A program made the position numbers and the translations under genes. From positions 1-22,441 of the IMG/VR virus record IMGVR_UViG_3300025110_001552: a stretch of 22,441 bases of DNA; one strand, 5' to 3'. The DNA comes from a virus. Below the pieces are notes generated by a model. The model saw only the letters and a program-made list of their open reading frames with translations. It did no database searches and had not been told where the DNA came from. Below, one piece after another: positions 391 to 14,906 of the stretch (positions within the stretch are counted from its first letter, which is position 1; each line of letters opens with the position of its first letter).

Positions 391-1002
391 TTACTTTTTC
401 ACTCCATAAATTGTAATGCTTCCACTTGTTATATTGCCACTCTCCATTATAAATTTAATACCTGTTACAGCAGTTGCCACATCAATTAAATTAGTAGTTT
501 CAGTTGCATATATTGTGCCACCTGCACCATAAGTTCCTAATGATTTTGCATAAGTAAAACCATTTGTTCCATTAGCAGGAAAAAAATCAGTATGTGCAGT
601 ATATTCTTCCCTTGTTGAGTTACCTAAAACATGTAGTGTTGTGTGGTCAGTTTCTGCTGATGTAAAACCACTAACAGATGAACTTGCAACATCAGCATAT
701 ATATTATATCTTCTGTAACTTCCTGTTAAATCACTTCCACTTCCACCACCTGTTCTAAAAATAAATCTAAATTCTTTATTATTAGTTTCAGCTTTAAAAT
801 TGTTATACACAATTTTATAGTAAGCATAAGTGCTGTGGTCCACAAAGTTATCAAATGTTAAATCAGAACTACCACTTGCAGTAGCACTTGCTAACTTAAC
901 TAAACCACTATGAGCTACACTATCTTTAACTAAAACACCATCAATAGTTACACCATTTGCACCTGTATATTCATTGATTGTGTTTACTTGTATTTCACTC
1001 AT
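391..1002 (-). CDS. Tail fibre/appendage protein with beta-sandwich-like body (203 aa)
   Basis: Residues 1-30 contain the segment NTINEYTGANGVTIDGVLVK, a short fibre-joining motif common in structural proteins of marine phages. Residues 35-203 are rich in Gly, Ser, Thr and aromatic residues with alternating hydrophobic strands (YAYYKIVYNNF, FRFIFRTGG, GIKFIMESG), consistent with a jelly-roll or similar receptor-binding or decoration domain. No enzyme motif, signal peptide or membrane segment is visible. The ATG overlaps the TGA of the 723-residue fibre gene by four bases (ATGA), and the stop directly abuts the next start, so the three are co-translated. It probably sits at the tip of the 723-residue fibre or as a second fibre. 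Function is inferred from context and composition. Confidence 0.75.
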   Translation of the reverse strand: MSEIQVNTINEYTGANGVTIDGVLVKDSVAHSGLVKLASATASGSSDLTFDNFVDHSTYAYYKIVYNNFKAETNNKEFRFIFRTGGGSGSDLTGSYRRYNIYADVASSSVSGFTSAETDHTTLHVLGNSTREEYTAHTDFFPANGTNGFTYAKSLGTYGAGGTIYATETTNLIDVATAVTGIKFIMESGNITSGSITIYGVKK

Positions 1003-3170
1003 AGTATTACCATTGTACCTGCATTTGTTACTATACCACTTATTGTTAATGGTCCTGCATATACAGCACCATCAGTAGAACCTATAGTGTAATTTGATGT
1101 TTGTTCTTGACTATGAACATAAGCACCACCTGCTGATGTTAAAGCTAGTGTTGTACTCATAGTTGCTCTTTCAGTTCCTGCTGTATCAAATCTAATAATA
1201 TCTTCATCAGCACCTTCTTCTACCTGTATCTTGGTATCGCCATCTGCATCTACTATTTGTGTAGCATCTACACCGCTAACAACTAAGTCTATTGTTCCAT
1301 CTCCATCTTGATATGTAGCTGTTATACCTGTTTCGGTATTGCTACTAAACATAGCACCGACAATATCTTGTATCTGTTCGGTAGTATTTCCTGTAGCAAC
1401 TAAGTCTATAGTGCCATCACTATCTTCATAGGTAACTGTAATGTTAGTTTCTGTATTACCTGTGAACATAGCACCGACAATGTCTTGTACTTGTTCAGTA
1501 GTAAGTTGTGTGTCTGCTGTCATGTCATCTACAACTAAATCTATAGTGCCATCTGAATCTTCATAAGTAGCAGATATTCTAGTTTCTGTGTTGCTAGTAA
1601 ACATAGCACCTACTATGTCTTGTACAGCTTCTGTATTTAGTGTTACTGTTACAGTGTCTGTTGCACTAGCTGCTGTATCAATACCATTACCACCTGCTAT
1701 CTCTAATGTGTTTGCATCAGATATAGTTTGGTCTGAACCAGTATCTCCTGATACAGTAAAACTGTTCATGTTTCCAACACCAGTTCCAGATAAGAAAGCT
1801 GCTCTAGTTTGTTTCTTTAAACCACTAGCAGTGTCATCATATATAAGTATTACATCATTGTTATCAGCAGAAGCTTCATTAGTTTGTCCAGTAATAACTG
1901 TTGCATCTACAGCTATATCATTACCAGATATTGTTAAACCATTTCCACCATCTAATGGTGTTCCAAATACTGTAATTTTTCCACCCATACCAGAGTGTGA
2001 TGTACAATAATAATAAAGAACATCTGGAGTAGCAGCATCTACTGTGTACTCTACATAAGAACCAGTAGTCCCTTGTGATACACCAGAACTTGTTTTGCCT
2101 GTTGTATATTCAGAACCACCACCATGTGAACCATTACTTGTTATAGATAAAGCAAATGGATGTCCAGAAGTAGAGCTATGAGATAAATTAAATCTATGAA
2201 CAACTCCTGGTCTAAAAGATATTGTAGCTTGTGCTTCTCCATCTATATAAAATTTATTACCAGAACCTGGGTTAACAACAGTTACTGCATACTCTACTAT
2301 TACTGGATTATTTTCTAAATTAATAGTTTTATTTGTTAATTCTTGTGTCCCTGTAAGAGTTGCAACAGAACTATCGATAGCTACTGTAATTTTATTAGTA
2401 CCTGTAGCTGTGGCTATACCTGTACTACCTTCAATATCTAATGCTTCAGAATCTAAATCTATTTCAATATTGCTACCAGTATCAGCAGATACTTCTAAAT
2501 GTTCTGCTGTTATTTGGTCATCTACATATTTTTTAATTGATTGTTGTGTAGCAAGATGCGTGTCACTATTACTAGCCATATTATCTTCATCTTTTACAGG
2601 AACAACAAAATCCATTGTTCCATCACTATCTTCGTATGTTACATCTATAAATGTTTCTGTATTACCAGTGACCATACCTCCAACAAAATCTTCTATTGAT
2701 TCTTCTGTTTGTATTTGACTATCTACATACGCTTTTATAGATTGTTGTGTAGCAAGATGTGTAGCACTATCAGATGCCATGTTATCTTCATCTTTAACTA
2801 ATCCTGATGTGTTTACTGCAGTACCATCAGAGTTCATTATTGTATCTACTCTGTCATTTAAGTCATCAAAGTGTTGCTTCATAGCAACCATTCTGACTTT
2901 AGCACCTACAGCGTGTGCGTTTAATCCACCACTATCACTATCAATATTTCTTACTACTGTAAGAGATACTCCACTTCTGCTAGTAACCTTTATATATTCC
3001 CTAGTGCTATCACTATCAGGGTCTATAACAAGATACATTGGATTGGATGCGGAAGGTGAACCTACTGGTGCTGCGTTTACTTGTACTGATACTTCTGTTG
3101 CATCTGCACCAATGGCTAAAGCTAATGTTGTTTCATAAGCATTTTGTAATATGCTTTTTTGTGCGGTCAT
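999..3170 (-). CDS. Repeat-built tail fibre protein with an internal cupredoxin-like domain (723 aa)
   Basis: Domains in order: an N-terminal beta domain (about 13-95) ending LTVVRNIDSDSGGLNAHAVG; a helical joint (97-112, KQHFDDLNDRVD); two copies of a 29-residue VKDEDNMAS...THLATQQSIK unit (125-153, 192-220); a first DIVGAMF-type repeat (159-190); a cupredoxin-like domain (288-405) with His337, Cys389, His392 and Met395 in type-1 copper spacing; three more DIVGAMF...NTET...TYEDSDGTIDLVV repeats (516-547, 561-591, 600-631); and a C-terminal beta region (640-723). Tandem Gly/Thr/Asp-rich repeats of this kind form fibre shafts in phages. The start at 3170 lies one base after the stop of the propeller gene, with AGGA about 7 bases upstream. 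The final codons overlap the next start (ATGA). It is probably the main receptor-binding fibre. Confidence 0.85.
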   Translation of the reverse strand: MTAQKSILQNAYETTLALAIGADATEVSVQVNAAPVGSPSASNPMYLVIDPDSDSTREYIKVTSRSGVSLTVVRNIDSDSGGLNAHAVGAKVRMVAMKQHFDDLNDRVDTIMNSDGTAVNTSGLVKDEDNMASDSATHLATQQSIKAYVDSQIQTEESIEDFVGGMVTGNTETFIDVTYEDSDGTMDFVVPVKDEDNMASNSDTHLATQQSIKKYVDDQITAEHLEVSADTGSNIEIDLDSEALDIEGSTGIATATGTNKITVAIDSSVATLTGTQELTNKTINLENNPVIVEYAVTVVNPGSGNKFYIDGEAQATISFRPGVVHRFNLSHSSTSGHPFALSITSNGSHGGGSEYTTGKTSSGVSQGTTGSYVEYTVDAATPDVLYYYCTSHSGMGGKITVFGTPLDGGNGLTISGNDIAVDATVITGQTNEASADNNDVILIYDDTASGLKKQTRAAFLSGTGVGNMNSFTVSGDTGSDQTISDANTLEIAGGNGIDTAASATDTVTVTLNTEAVQDIVGAMFTSNTETRISATYEDSDGTIDLVVDDMTADTQLTTEQVQDIVGAMFTGNTETNITVTYEDSDGTIDLVATGNTTEQIQDIVGAMFSSNTETGITATYQDGDGTIDLVVSGVDATQIVDADGDTKIQVEEGADEDIIRFDTAGTERATMSTTLALTSAGGAYVHSQEQTSNYTIGSTDGAVYAGPLTISGIVTNAGTMVIL
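1278..1625 (-). repeat. Three tandem ~32-residue fibre repeats
   Basis: Three in-frame copies of a unit reading (V/I)QDIVGAMF..NTET.I..TY(E/Q)D.DGTIDLVV lie at 1530-1625, 1398-1490 and 1278-1373. Spacings are 135 and 117 bases because the linkers differ in length. A fourth, more diverged copy is at 2601-2696 (IEDFVGGMVTGNTETFIDVT...), about 1 kb away on the far side of the cupredoxin-like domain. Third-codon positions vary between copies while the protein is held, as expected for selected shaft repeats. Confidence 0.9.
1956..2309 (-). other. Cupredoxin-like domain inside the tail fibre
   Basis: Residues 288-405 of the fibre read as a beta-rich domain with the ligand set of a type-1 (blue) copper site: a His in SGHPFAL (residue 337) and the loop YYYCTSHSGMGG giving Cys389, His392 and Met395. 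In plastocyanin-like proteins the equivalents are an early His and a Cys-x2-His-x(2-4)-Met loop. The signature is seen directly; copper binding is inference. Confidence 0.7.
2511..2798 (-). repeat. Two copies of a VKDEDNMAS...THLATQQSIK..VD unit
   Basis: Residues 125-153 (bases 2712-2798) and 192-220 (2511-2597) of the fibre protein are near-identical: VKDEDNMAS(D/N)S.THLATQQSIK.YVD.QI. They flank the first DIVGAMF-type repeat, so a composite block has been duplicated. The ...HLATQQSIK.YVD... helix resembles a trimerisation or registration element seen in many phage fibres (recalled pattern). Confidence 0.85.
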
Positions 3171-9338: not shown

Positions 9339-10529
9339 CTAACTAAATGCTGCCGATAAATCTTGTTTAAAATTACCTGCCATACCACTAAGTATATCTT
9401 GTTGTACACCTGGTGTATTCTGGTAATCGTTTCTTACTTGCTTACCTATAATTGTGTAATCACCTTTAAAATCTTTAGCTAAGTTATCCATATATGATTT
9501 AAACTCTTTGTTTGGTGCTTGTTTAGTTATGTTAAATCCATAGTTATACAATGGTGCAGACCAAGTGCTGTGTTTAGAACCAGAGAAATGTGGATATACT
9601 TTATCATGTGCAGCTTGTAACTCTGTTCTTATTTTTTCTTCTTGTACATTACTTTCACTAAGTGCATCTAGTCTTAACATACCTGCATACTTTTCTAATT
9701 GTCCTGATTCTATGTAACCATTTAATGCACTTTCACCCATTATGTCAATAATAATATTTTTAGCTGCTAGTTCTCCTGTCTTTGTTTCATCAATCATACC
9801 TATATATTTACGATATGACTCAGGTAAAGCATCTTCACCACCTACCATTTTTCTATAATAAGAATCAGATAACAATCTCATAATTTCAAACCCTTTAGCA
9901 CTACTCATAGCTTGACCTTCTATCATTTTGCCTGATGTAATATCTAATGCTAGTTGTGATGACAAAGCATTAAAACCAGAACCAGTTATACCCAAACCAT
10001 TTAAATCAACATTAAAGTTTTCTTTGTTCTGTGCTAACTGTGCATCTGCTCTGTCTGGTGCAAGTAATTTAAGTTGTATAAAATTTCTTTCTTGTGTTGT
10101 TGTGTTTAAATAATAAGGTGTATTTTCTATTTCCTCTGGTGTTACTGGAATACCTGTAAGTGCAGAAGAAGCATATAGTTTTACAATATCCTCTTCATAC
10201 ACCCAGTTACCTGATATAGCAGCACTTCTATCTATATTCTTTTCTAATATAGTTTCTATATCTGACCAATTTCTGTCATCTGGGTCTTGTAGCTGTGAAT
10301 AATTTAATACTGGTACAAACAATCTTTCGTTTGCATTTTCCCATTCTTCTTTTGTAAATGATTGTATTCCTGTAGGAGGTTGACCATTAGTAAAGTAATT
10401 ATTAGAGTCTATAAAAACAACAAGCGGTAAACTGTATTCTGGTCCTGCAACATTAAATATTCCATAGTATTCGCCATCTACTTGTATGACCTCATCTGAT
10501 TCTATATACTCTGGATTAAAATTACTCAT
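9339..10529 (-). CDS. Unknown structural/ejection-block protein (396 aa)
   Basis: No family recognised. The N-terminal 60 residues look beta-rich (VIQVDGEYYGIFNVAGPEYS, LPLVVFIDSNNYF). Residues 90-390 are mainly helical and charged, including ERNFIQLKLLAPDRADAQLA and a Gly-containing break, GLGITGSGFNALSS. The protein has no cysteines, catalytic signature, signal peptide or membrane segment. The start overlaps the stop of the multidomain effector-like gene as TAATG, with AGGA about 11 bases upstream, so production is probably coupled to that gene. A partner or chaperone of the large protein is one possibility, and a minor virion protein another. Confidence 0.55.
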   Translation of the reverse strand: MSNFNPEYIESDEVIQVDGEYYGIFNVAGPEYSLPLVVFIDSNNYFTNGQPPTGIQSFTKEEWENANERLFVPVLNYSQLQDPDDRNWSDIETILEKNIDRSAAISGNWVYEEDIVKLYASSALTGIPVTPEEIENTPYYLNTTTQERNFIQLKLLAPDRADAQLAQNKENFNVDLNGLGITGSGFNALSSQLALDITSGKMIEGQAMSSAKGFEIMRLLSDSYYRKMVGGEDALPESYRKYIGMIDETKTGELAAKNIIIDIMGESALNGYIESGQLEKYAGMLRLDALSESNVQEEKIRTELQAAHDKVYPHFSGSKHSTWSAPLYNYGFNITKQAPNKEFKSYMDNLAKDFKGDYTIIGKQVRNDYQNTPGVQQDILSGMAGNFKQDLSAAFS

Positions 10530-13500
10530 TATTTATTGCTTCCTGTAAATCCTGCATTATATATACTAGCAGGATTTTCCTTAAGTTTTGTAGTATAATC
10601 GCTAGTGGTTTGGTCTGTACCAGATTTGTACGCTTCACCTATTAAAAACATTAAACCTTTTGTTAAACCCCATCCTGGTGAATATTTAGATATTTTTTCT
10701 TGGTCTAATTCATTCATAAACTGACTACCAAAATCAAACTCTTCTAGTTGTTTTTTACCTGGCGGTGTTTGAAAATAATCATATGCAGACATACCTAATA
10801 CTTTAACTGGTTTTCCTGTAGCATCTAACTCTGGTTGTCGTAATTCGTTATACACAGCACCACCTTCTCTGTATTTGTAAGCAGATGAATCTGCATATAA
10901 CGCTGCTTGTGCAACATCAGCTAATGCTACTCCTATTTCGTAAGCTATGTATGTTGGCAATATGTTACCAAATTTTAATCTACCAAAACCTAATTTAGAT
11001 GCTGCATCATCTAAATATGGAACTGCTTTTTCTATAGCTTTTTCTATAGCAACATCTCCTGGTGCTAATGCAGGTGCTATTTTACCTAATCCTGCTAATG
11101 CAGTTCCACCTAGTACACCAAATCGTGTAAGAGTTTTAGCTAATGTATTGTATAACTTTGGATTTTTAGCAACTGTTTCTTGTGCTAGTTGTGCAGCTAG
11201 TTTGCTATCAGTACCACCTTGTTGCATTTTATTTTGCACAGCAACTTTTATTTCTTTTTCTGTTGGTGCTGTAGAGAATCTGTGATTAGTTAATGATACT
11301 TCTAAATTGTTTATCTCTGGTACAAATTGATTTACCACATCACTGTCAGATGCTATATATCCTTTAAAGTTACCTGCATCCCAGTATTGTTCTACATTAG
11401 CAAAATTTTCACCTAGTATTTTTTCTATCTCTTGTACAGATATTTGATTAGCTTCCATATCTAGCAATACATTAAATTTTTTATCTTGTAACTGTTCTGG
11501 TGTATAGTATTTAGATTTAAAAGTATTTTTTAATTCTTCATTAGCTTTGTATATTGCATCATTGTTAGCAAATTTTTCTTCTATTATTATTATTCCATTT
11601 TCATTTAACAAGTTTTCTTTTATAAATTTAATTTGTTCTGCTCTATTTTTATCCATAAATTGAAATGCCATAGACTCATGTACTACATCATATTTATCTA
11701 CTTCATTAAATACAGCAAATCTTACAGGTTGAAATGCTTTAGCATCAAATATTTTATCTTGGTCATCTAATACATAACTAAATGCTTCTCTTCTAAATAT
11801 TGCATTAGTAACTAATTCACCTTCTTCAAATACATCTTGTGCTTTTTTTAATGGGTCTAACACTTCTACATAAAAGTTTGGATTATTTTTAGCTAATGCT
11901 TTTGCCCATGTTCCTTCTGTTCCTCCTATATCTAATACTTGATATCTTCCTTTTAATAAGTTGTCAGGCATAGGTTGTTTGTTAAGTAAATTAGATAATG
12001 CTAAACCTTTTATTATTTGTGTTTCATAAAATGTAGGTATTGATGTAAAAATGTGTTGATTAAAGTTGCCACCTTCTTTAACTAATTTGTTATAGTCATC
12101 TTGCCACTTATAAATATCTGGATTGTTCAAATCTATAATCTGTTCATACGCTGATTTTGGTCTATATTTTTCATTAATACCTTTTACAACATCATCAAAA
12201 AAGTCTTGTGATGCTTGACCTGCATCAGCTAAAGGTTTACTAATATTTTCTATTTCAAATCCATTTTTTGGTAAATCAGATACATTTATTCTGTTAACAT
12301 CATCTTGTATTAATACCTGCTCTAGCTTTGCACTAGGTTTGTTTGCTGCTTCTGCAAGAACAATTATTTCTTGCTCATTACTAAATGACAATCCTAAAGC
12401 ATCTAAATCTATCATGTTGTTTTTGTGTATTAAATAAGTTTCTACAGTATCACCTGCACCATATAATTGATTCATTTGATAAGATACAGCTTGTGCTGAT
12501 GATGGACTTTTAGACATTGATTGCCATGGGTAAAATCTATTTAATTTACCACCACGCCATAACACAAAATAGTCATTAGGATTATTTTTATATATTTTAT
12601 TATGTGCATCTATTATTACATTTCTCATGCGTTCTTTTAAGTTAGTAAATTGACCTTGTTCAGTTACTAACTCAACTAATACTTTATTTATTTCTGGTCC
12701 AAGTTCAGAGTTACGAGATTGTAGTCTGTCTAAAAAAAATGCTTCATCATTAAATACACCCATAGGTATAACTTCTGTAATTGGCTTATCACTAAAAATA
12801 CCAATTTTGACAATATCTGATAGTGCATCTGCTTGGAAATATGGTTTATGTGCGTATGCAGTTGATGGACTGTGACTAGCTAAATATATAAAAAACTTAG
12901 TTATATCTTCATCAGATGCTCTGTTTTTTAATATTCTTTCATATAATTCTTTAGCATCAAAACTTGTAGTTCTATTCCAGATATATTCTTTACCTTCTCT
13001 AGTGTATCTAGTAAAAGAGTCTGGATTAAATACTTTATTAGGTTTGATTACATCATCTGCCCATTCATCTATTTCACCTACTGGTACATCTAGTACATCT
13101 GAAGTGTAATTAAATCTTGTTTCTAGTAATGGTGCATCATCTACTACATTTGTAGGTGTGTCTGGTATATCTGTATAGTATTTATAGTAACCATTTAATG
13201 TTCTGTCATATTTGTCCATGCCTTGTATGTTTTTTCTTGGGTCAATAGGTTCAACTTTATTTCCTTGTTCATCTAATACCCAATCCCAATCTTCCATTTC
13301 TGCTAAAGCCATATCTTCAAAAGGAGTAGGTTCTGTCCAACCATCAAAAACAATAGCCATGTCCTCTGTTTTTTTTGTAGTGTATAAATCATCATTAAAT
13401 GCTATTACATCATAAAAAACATCTTGATTAACAGCACCTAATATTCTTGACTTAACTGTTTGGTCTACTATGCCTTCAGATAATTTATCGTACTTTCTGT

Positions 13501-14326
13501 ATCTTGATAACAAACCTTCTTTTATGTGTGGATTATCTATTTGTTCTATAAAATTATCTAAACTTTTTCTAAATTCTTCAGGCGTTACTCCTTCTTTTAA
13601 CTGATAACCTGTGCCACTTTGTTCTCTTAGCAAATCATCAGGAGTTAATGTATCTCCTTTTCCTTCATAAAAAGGTATTGGACCAAGTTCTTCAACAGGA
13701 TAGTTTTTTATAAATTCATCATAAGAAATATTATCAGGTCTTTCTAGAATATTTTGGCTGAACAATTCAGAATTTTTTTCTACTGGTAATTCACCAATTA
13801 CATTTTTATCTAAATTTTTAAAAGCTTCTACTTGATTTTCGTAGCCAATCATAGTTGCTTTAATATCATCTACTACATTTGTAGGTGTGTCTGTATTTTC
13901 TAAAGTATTTGGTATTGTAATATCATTTTCTAATGTAGTTGGTAATGTTGTTTCAACTGGAAAGGTATCATAATACTCTAATAAAACACCTTTCATACCT
14001 TTGCCTTCTTTTAATATTTTATTGAATTTATCTAATGCTTGTACATCTCCACCTTTACCTTTAGCATTAAAAGAATAATCTACAATAACTTCACCATCTG
14101 GAAAAACCCTTTGTACATTAACTATTGTGTCATCTAAAGTTTTATTTACATCAACTATTTCTGAACCAGATATACCTGTTTTTATTGGTATGTCATCTGG
14201 TAATTCTAAAACAAATTCATACTTCACTCCACCAACATCTTCTGCATAAAATATACTATTTTGAATGCCAGATGATTGTTTTATTAAAAACTCTTTAACT
14301 AATGCTATCCAATCTTTTTCAGCCAT
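10529..14326 (-). CDS. Multidomain virion/effector-like protein: ADP-ribosyltransferase plus SAM methyltransferase (1265 aa)
   Basis: I chose ATG 14326 (MAEKDW) because AAGG lies five bases before it; an in-frame ATG at 14338 lacks a ribosome site. Residues 1-115 are beta-rich and 115-430 are linker-like with two TPTNVVDD copies. Residues 440-585 are helical. Residues 587-660 carry an R-S-E ADP-ribosyltransferase signature: Arg591 in VLWRGG, Ser603-Met-Ser605 followed by a SPSSAQAVS helix, and Glu651-x-Glu653 in SNEQEIIV. Residues 797-917 hold class I methyltransferase motifs: VLDIGGTEGTW (SAM loop), EVLDP with acidic Asp824, YDVVHESMAFQFM, and LLNENGIIIIEE. Hydrophobic stretches (1067-1090, 1122-1145) may touch membrane. 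The gene follows the lytic enzyme in the putative ejection block. The domains are seen in sequence; delivery into the host and the targets are inferred, by analogy with T4 Alt (an injected ADP-ribosyltransferase) and phage polyvalent proteins. Confidence 0.8.
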   Translation of the reverse strand: MAEKDWIALVKEFLIKQSSGIQNSIFYAEDVGGVKYEFVLELPDDIPIKTGISGSEIVDVNKTLDDTIVNVQRVFPDGEVIVDYSFNAKGKGGDVQALDKFNKILKEGKGMKGVLLEYYDTFPVETTLPTTLENDITIPNTLENTDTPTNVVDDIKATMIGYENQVEAFKNLDKNVIGELPVEKNSELFSQNILERPDNISYDEFIKNYPVEELGPIPFYEGKGDTLTPDDLLREQSGTGYQLKEGVTPEEFRKSLDNFIEQIDNPHIKEGLLSRYRKYDKLSEGIVDQTVKSRILGAVNQDVFYDVIAFNDDLYTTKKTEDMAIVFDGWTEPTPFEDMALAEMEDWDWVLDEQGNKVEPIDPRKNIQGMDKYDRTLNGYYKYYTDIPDTPTNVVDDAPLLETRFNYTSDVLDVPVGEIDEWADDVIKPNKVFNPDSFTRYTREGKEYIWNRTTSFDAKELYERILKNRASDEDITKFFIYLASHSPSTAYAHKPYFQADALSDIVKIGIFSDKPITEVIPMGVFNDEAFFLDRLQSRNSELGPEINKVLVELVTEQGQFTNLKERMRNVIIDAHNKIYKNNPNDYFVLWRGGKLNRFYPWQSMSKSPSSAQAVSYQMNQLYGAGDTVETYLIHKNNMIDLDALGLSFSNEQEIIVLAEAANKPSAKLEQVLIQDDVNRINVSDLPKNGFEIENISKPLADAGQASQDFFDDVVKGINEKYRPKSAYEQIIDLNNPDIYKWQDDYNKLVKEGGNFNQHIFTSIPTFYETQIIKGLALSNLLNKQPMPDNLLKGRYQVLDIGGTEGTWAKALAKNNPNFYVEVLDPLKKAQDVFEEGELVTNAIFRREAFSYVLDDQDKIFDAKAFQPVRFAVFNEVDKYDVVHESMAFQFMDKNRAEQIKFIKENLLNENGIIIIEEKFANNDAIYKANEELKNTFKSKYYTPEQLQDKKFNVLLDMEANQISVQEIEKILGENFANVEQYWDAGNFKGYIASDSDVVNQFVPEINNLEVSLTNHRFSTAPTEKEIKVAVQNKMQQGGTDSKLAAQLAQETVAKNPKLYNTLAKTLTRFGVLGGTALAGLGKIAPALAPGDVAIEKAIEKAVPYLDDAASKLGFGRLKFGNILPTYIAYEIGVALADVAQAALYADSSAYKYREGGAVYNELRQPELDATGKPVKVLGMSAYDYFQTPPGKKQLEEFDFGSQFMNELDQEKISKYSPGWGLTKGLMFLIGEAYKSGTDQTTSDYTTKLKENPASIYNAGFTGSNK
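13136..13164 (-). repeat. 29-base direct repeat, copy 1 (inside the effector-like gene)
   Basis: This 29-base stretch is identical to 13865-13893, 729 bases away in the same gene and the same frame. It encodes TPTNVVDD near residues 390-397. Confidence 0.9.
13865..13893 (-). repeat. 29-base direct repeat, copy 2 (inside the effector-like gene)
   Basis: Exact partner of 13136-13164. It encodes TPTNVVDD near residues 147-154, within a low-complexity linker that also repeats TLEN(D/T). The 729-base spacing is a multiple of three, so recombination between copies would delete 243 residues in frame. Confidence 0.9.
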
Positions 14327-14906
14327 TGTTACCTTCATTAGGTGATGGTATGTTAGCTATACTAGATGAGTCATAATCAAACAAGTTTCCAAATTCTTTA
14401 GATTTAACTTGCATATAAGAATTAACATAAGCACCTATTGCATCAGTAACGCTTTCTAAGTCTCTATCTATTTTTTTACCTTTTGTAAAAGGTACTACAT
14501 AGTCTTTATATGCGTTCCATTTGTTTAATGGGTCTCCATCAGTTCCAAAAGATTTAGGATTATCAGATAATCTTTTTATGTAATGTGCAACAAATTGTGA
14601 AGCAAATTTTTCGTTATTGTTTATTTTGTTAACAAATTCTTTTTGTGTATATTCTTTCCCTGACTCTTTAAAAAAAGTTGTCAATGTTTCATCAGGTTTA
14701 TTTTCATCTCTGTTTTTATAAAAACCTTCTACATTGACTTGATACACACCATAATCTTTAGTGCCATTAGTATTTGTTCCAATAACATCATTATTTAATC
14801 CAGATTCAAAAGAAGCAGTCATAATTAATAATGGTATTAAAGCATCACTAACACCAAAATTTTGTAGATATTCTACTAAATCACTTATTCGTACAGAGAC
14901 AGCCAT
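14319..14906 (-). CDS. Lytic transglycosylase/lysozyme-like wall-degrading enzyme (195 aa)
   Basis: Predicted to cut the peptidoglycan glycan strand. Residues 28-58 show the lysozyme/SLT pattern: a helix ending in the catalytic acid, IMTASFESGLN (Glu34), then G.NTNGTKDYGVYQVN (50-58), the 'YG.(Y/F)Q(I/V)N' beta hairpin that lines the active site. KWNAYKDY at 129-136 matches the closing segment of this fold. There is no signal peptide or membrane anchor, and the gene lies between large putative virion proteins rather than beside a holin. A virion-carried enzyme that opens the wall for DNA entry (the role of the T7 gp16 N-terminal domain) is therefore more likely than a lysis enzyme. A good AGGTGG site precedes the start, and its stop is overlapped by the next gene. 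Confidence 0.8.
   Translation of the reverse strand: MAVSVRISDLVEYLQNFGVSDALIPLLIMTASFESGLNNDVIGTNTNGTKDYGVYQVNVEGFYKNRDENKPDETLTTFFKESGKEYTQKEFVNKINNNEKFASQFVAHYIKRLSDNPKSFGTDGDPLNKWNAYKDYVVPFTKGKKIDRDLESVTDAIGAYVNSYMQVKSKEFGNLFDYDSSSIANIPSPNEGNNG

Follow-up and report, generated by a model that had tools for sequence, protein, structure and literature searches.

Why should a phage tail fibre carry what looks like the copper site of a blue-copper protein? The question arises from a viral record 22,441 bases long, here called the window, which is the whole stretch of DNA that was analyzed. A minus-strand gene at 999-3170 encodes a tail fibre of 723 aa, for which PHROG tail-fibre matches were obtained and whose shaft repeats are similar to the tail fibre of Puniceispirillum phage HMO-2011 and a structural protein of Pelagibacter phage HTVC115P. 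The window also encodes a major capsid protein of the SU10 type (PF17236, E 2.6e-39). A sequence-only reading had placed a cupredoxin-like domain at residues 288-405 of the fibre (1956-2309) and had named His337, Cys389, His392 and Met395 as its copper ligands. The coordinates were exact, and the four residues were found at the positions claimed.

The fibre has a clear order of parts, all given here as window coordinates on the minus strand. Comparison with sibling fibres, defined as fibres with the same N-terminus that are 55-91% identical over residues 1-157 or 1-259, identified a conserved N-terminal (virion-attachment) region (residues 1-110; 2841-3170) and a C-terminal tip region (residues 675-723; 1002-1148), both common to siblings without the domain. 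Repeat mapping placed the N-side shaft repeats at 2514-2795, namely two copies of KDED..THLATQQSIK (residues 126-152 and 193-219) and one of VGGM..TYEDSDGT (residues 157-190). The shaft motif TLTGTQELTNKTI (2322-2360) directly precedes the cupredoxin domain, which comprises residues 292-403 (1962-2297). Two VGAM..TYEDSDGT repeats follow on the C side at residues 514-547 and 559-591 (1398-1631). The domain therefore interrupts two sets of shaft repeats, as had been proposed.

The first predicted ligand is His337 (2160-2162). The other three belong to the loop Cys389-x2-His392-x2-Met395 (1986-2006), with Cys389 at 2004-2006, His392 at 1995-1997 and Met395 at 1986-1988. Amicyanin has the same loop spacing, C-x2-H-x2-M, and the pattern occurred in 0.025% of sequences shuffled from the fibre's own residues. 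With His-Cys-His-Met in this order and a short loop the type-1 ligand set is complete, and the domain probably binds copper. The 723-aa fibre has no cysteine besides Cys389, which rules out an intradomain disulfide. For the same reason, and since the predicted fold is that of a cupredoxin, a disulfide or immunoglobulin V-set reading of the YYYC motif was rejected.

An AlphaFold2 model of the domain, based on an alignment of 23 relatives, reached a mean pLDDT of 87.6 and a pTM of 0.81 and was least confident at the NGSHGGG loop and the C-terminal tail. When the model was compared to the PDB with Foldseek, rusticyanins were the best matches (E 3.8e-5, probability 1.0), after which came mainly copper nitrite reductases, pseudoazurins, multicopper oxidases and plastocyanin; the top structural matches were cupredoxins in almost every case. 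VIA-align superposed residues 1-111 of the model on residues 38-155 of rusticyanin (Z 9.9, rmsd 2.6 over 96 residues). The copper ligands of rusticyanin are His85, Cys138, His143 and Met148. In both chains the alignment ended seven residues past the axial Met, as a correct ligand register would give. The predicted fold is thus the cupredoxin fold that had been suspected, and we hold the identification of the domain as a cupredoxin with high confidence.

At the sequence level, the best Pfam match of the isolated domain was PF25489 (At5g54830-like), which covered the whole domain with 26.9 bits (E 5.3e-6), 0.1 bit under the curated cut-off of 27; within the whole fibre protein the score was 22.7 bits. 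The members of PF25489 are plant DOMON/cytochrome b561 membrane proteins, whereas the fibre domain is part of a virion. PF00127 (plastocyanin/azurin) gave 15.3 bits (E 0.027), so that the window copy alone stays under the Pfam cut-off of 21.2. This cut-off was passed by two relatives, the proximal tail fibre of the cultured phage P-SSM2 (23.3 bits) and a 627-aa chromosomal protein (L133, the same DNA as L193; 24.4 bits). The domain of the latter alone matched plastocyanin structures almost exclusively in a sequence search of the PDB (2plt, E 8e-4). PDB searches with the single window sequence or with the A1 profile yielded nothing useful, and NCBIfam gave no match. An hhalign comparison to eight cellular cupredoxins had an E-value of 7e-4 at a probability of only 27% and set His337, Cys389 and His392 on the blue-copper ligand positions; Met395 came two residues early relative to the cupredoxin Met because the loop is shorter. 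The fibre domain thus shares with type-1 cupredoxins (plastocyanin, azurin, rusticyanin and pseudoazurin; PF00127) the predicted fold, the ligand order and, via its relatives, homology. It differs from them in being built into a virion, in lacking an export signal, which is absent from the fibre, in its long NGSHGGG loop and in having no known electron-transfer partner.

From all searches 372 near-full-length domains were pooled and reduced to 87 with less than 62% mutual identity. All four ligands were present together in 84 of these 87 diverse domains (His337 in 85) and in 368 of the 372, one of the other four being cut by a contig end. The early counts (90/90 viral and 85/85 prokaryotic loci with the site) came from loci found by patterns containing the site, and the searches were therefore carried out with each half of the domain separately. 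With the His region alone, Cys, His and Met were kept in 83/83 untruncated domains; with the C..H loop alone, His337 and Met395 were kept in all 89 domains having the loop. The ligand conservation expected by the sequence-only reading is thus real and far beyond chance. Each of 90 viral copies has one cysteine per domain, barring one extra, which likewise speaks against the disulfide reading.

The three exceptions among the 87 (PSS2 gp080, L283 and L288) lacked two to four ligands each. These ligand-less copies would fit a generic beta-sandwich whose ligands are retained by chance or recent descent. However, they are just three of 87, and the ligands account for four of the five best-conserved columns in domains that otherwise vary to less than 62% identity, so that we regard such a fossil site as extremely improbable. 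The ligands are retained or lost together, which is what one would expect if the metal site is functional. PSS2 gp080 itself (L166) is a cyanophage protein of 112 aa, almost the domain alone, in which three of the four ligand positions have changed (D, A, T, M). A further histidine, His349 of the NGSHGGG loop (2124-2126), was considered as an extra ligand. Its conservation is wide and not universal, and its deletion in a close sibling fibre (L003/L354) indicates that the main site probably does not include it.

The domain was not a constant part of the fibre. Among the siblings it was carried by L353, L354 and, within its extent, L358, and it was missing from five complete ones (L355, L356, L357, L361 and L362), three of which have the C-terminal tip in common with the window fibre by alignment. 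Outside the fibres, its hosts included baseplate-annotated proteins, an HK97 gp6-like connector, a tail terminator and chromosomal lipoproteins of marine bacteria. When 205 distinct proteins were clustered by their flanks, 33 clusters resulted, some of which were mere fragments. The domain is therefore an optional, exchangeable module and not a feature of the fibre as such; its spread to other virion proteins and its absence from siblings had been missed by the earlier reader.

Two of these settings deserve description. At L005:705-1715 and L007:3953-4963 the domain lies in the middle of a 336-aa HK97 gp6-like head-tail connector. The genes downstream presumably encode, by the names we read from their sequences, a head-closure-type protein, a gp10-like protein, a tail terminator, a tail tube and a tape measure protein. 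The model of the connector with its insert was too poor for use (pLDDT 35.7), and the insertion therefore rests on sequence and gene order. At L281:2022-2774 a tail terminator (phrog_176, E 6.7e-28) carries the domain close to its N-terminus.

These findings bear on the idea that the metal, copper or in vivo zinc, is a structural staple which holds the domain or the fibre together in seawater, the domain serving as a spacer or stiffener of the shaft. The position in mid-shaft between repeats and the preservation of the metal site in most copies are in its favour, and the metal generally stabilises type-1 cupredoxins. On the other hand, siblings with the same N-terminus manage without the domain, and it occurs in the connector and the tail terminator, proteins without a long shaft. 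The same distribution weakens the ideas of a trimer lock and of a main receptor-binding tip. In addition, the cupredoxin fold persists without metal in ephrins and some phytocyanin-like proteins. Under a purely structural role one would thus expect single ligands to be lost here and there, and no such loss was seen. Taken together, we consider the structural staple rather unlikely.

Close relatives are encoded at more than 590 IMG/VR loci, which is a lower bound. Among 50,697 phage records there were 52 matches, all apparently marine or seawater phages, comprising cyanophages, pelagiphages, Methylophilales phages and uncultured marine phages. A profile search found several copies of the domain per genome in P-SSM2 and Syn1. 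Structures in BFVD placed the fold in cyanophage tail fibres, baseplate connectors and small proteins of giant viruses. Moreover, 84,980 prokaryotic genomes contained 95 loci. Some were phage-like, such as L092 with a T7 tail-fibre N-terminus, and others lay on long chromosomal contigs; these included gammaproteobacterial lipoproteins (L119 and L094), where the domain occurs alongside cadherin and Big repeats, and very large surface-type proteins of Bacteroidetes (L098). A tree of 106 domains, poorly resolved, contained 14 changes between virus and cell labels.

Several of these relatives were of interest in themselves. SAR86 genomes (L161, L132, L135, L144 and L156) encode family proteins of 167-188 aa, at least one of which (L161) has a lipoprotein signal. 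These look in effect like small surface or periplasmic cupredoxins and are apparently undescribed. Two alphaproteobacterial proteins (L155:4581-5861 and L159:4563-5828) carry two tandem domains, one phage-like and the other of the HPFWIKT...YYNCQ.H..M type nearer to PF25489. The proteins of P-HM1 and P-HM2 are publicly annotated as immunoglobulin ('contains PF07686'), and that of MED4-213 likewise in BFVD (L169, L173 and L181 for P-HM1, P-HM2 and MED4-213, respectively). Here the YYYCxxH loop of the cupredoxin may have been misread as the YYC motif of an Ig V-set domain.

Since type-1 copper sites are electron carriers and the relatives include chromosomal lipoproteins, a redox role was also considered, in which the site would exchange electrons at the cell surface or quench reactive oxygen near the virion. 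Against it, a partner redox protein was not found in the scanned parts of the window, and the domain moves among virion proteins without a common neighbour. We think such a role very improbable.

The closest parallel for the distribution is offered by the immunoglobulin-like domains of phages, which, according to Fraser et al. 2006 as cited in PMC13370021, are sporadic modules on virion proteins. Dispensable display on unrelated virion proteins was observed here as it is for those decoration domains. Both are sporadic beta-sandwich domains, appended to unrelated virion proteins or placed within them, and close siblings lack them; the fibre domain differs in having a cupredoxin instead of an Ig fold, an invariant metal site and display without a frameshift. 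With regard to metal, the iron-binding HxH tail fibres of T4 gp37 and alterophage R22Y (PMC11705849) are the nearest case. Like these, the window fibre has a metal-binding feature, here a predicted one, on the tail fibre of a marine phage. Unlike them, it has no HxH, since no two of its eleven histidines are two apart, and its predicted site is mononuclear (His2-Cys-Met) within one domain and not formed by paired histidines between subunits.

By analogy, an outer-membrane copper transporter or another copper-binding surface protein might recognise the copper-loaded domain and thereby aid adsorption, as a copper Trojan horse. The metal site is intact on surface-exposed virion proteins, and an iron version has already been proposed for the HxH fibres of marine phages (PMC11705849). 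The best precedent is the interaction of azurin with OprC reported in Pseudomonas (PMC6907878), but it was not reproduced with functional OprC (PMC8610252). The domain is also found on a head-tail connector, remote from first contact. We therefore judge this route improbable. The same low probability is given to the broader proposal that marine tailed phages use copper as an infection cofactor, whereby the modules would engage copper-binding surface proteins of the host, adsorption would depend on ambient copper and virions would constitute a seawater pool of protein-bound copper.

We favour the reading that the domain is an intact copper-binding cupredoxin which serves the virion as an optional module on its surface, and we consider this probable. 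Tail fibres are usually trimers; each domain would hold one copper, and three copies would lie beside the shaft of each fibre trimer. The fibre lacks an export signal and its assembly is cytoplasmic, so that the copper would be acquired at lysis or once outside the host. What the module does is a more tentative matter. Like the Ig-like domains of other phages, the copper-loaded domain could contact ligands on the cell surface or in solution, in a secondary and reversible manner, and would not transfer electrons. Siblings without the domain and the decorated connector fit a displayed contact module better than a staple specific to fibres. This contact role, which derives from the distribution of the module only, we put at slightly below an even chance. 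It has a weakness of its own, in that an adhesion module would not obviously need an invariant metal site. The near-invariance of the site suggests that the function of the domain, whatever its nature, needs metal.

The sequence-only reading had further supposed that the family is common yet unexplained in marine phages. This agrees with the many viral loci and with the open literature, in which no description of a cupredoxin on phage virions was found (subscription papers were outside the coverage). Cupredoxins and virion decoration domains were each known beforehand; their combination as a widespread marine-phage module with a conserved type-1 site was not found described. For a domain that occurs in numerous virion proteins of cyanophages and pelagiphages, today labelled hypothetical or structural, the analysis offers a likely identity. 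Should the site hold copper, some viruses that rank among the most abundant in the ocean would bear a redox metal on their exterior, with consequences for adsorption and for the cycling of trace metals. Much has been written about the iron (HxH) hypothesis for phage tails. In the present case the coordination chemistry belongs to a well-understood cofactor and the site hardly varies, which makes the idea directly testable in the cultured carriers of the domain, P-SSM2, Syn1, S-TIM5 and HTVC028P.

Two other minus-strand genes of the window were observed in passing. A virion-cluster protein of 1269 aa (10529-14338) showed a Methyltransf_23-like part at residues 798-924, with an E-value of 5e-4 that is below the cut-off for acceptance, preceded by a stretch that by eye resembles an ADP-ribosyltransferase. 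The 195-aa protein encoded at 14319-14906 had a weak likeness, likewise below the cut-off (E 1.9e-4), to C-type lysozyme or phage tail lysozyme and is probably a virion muramidase.
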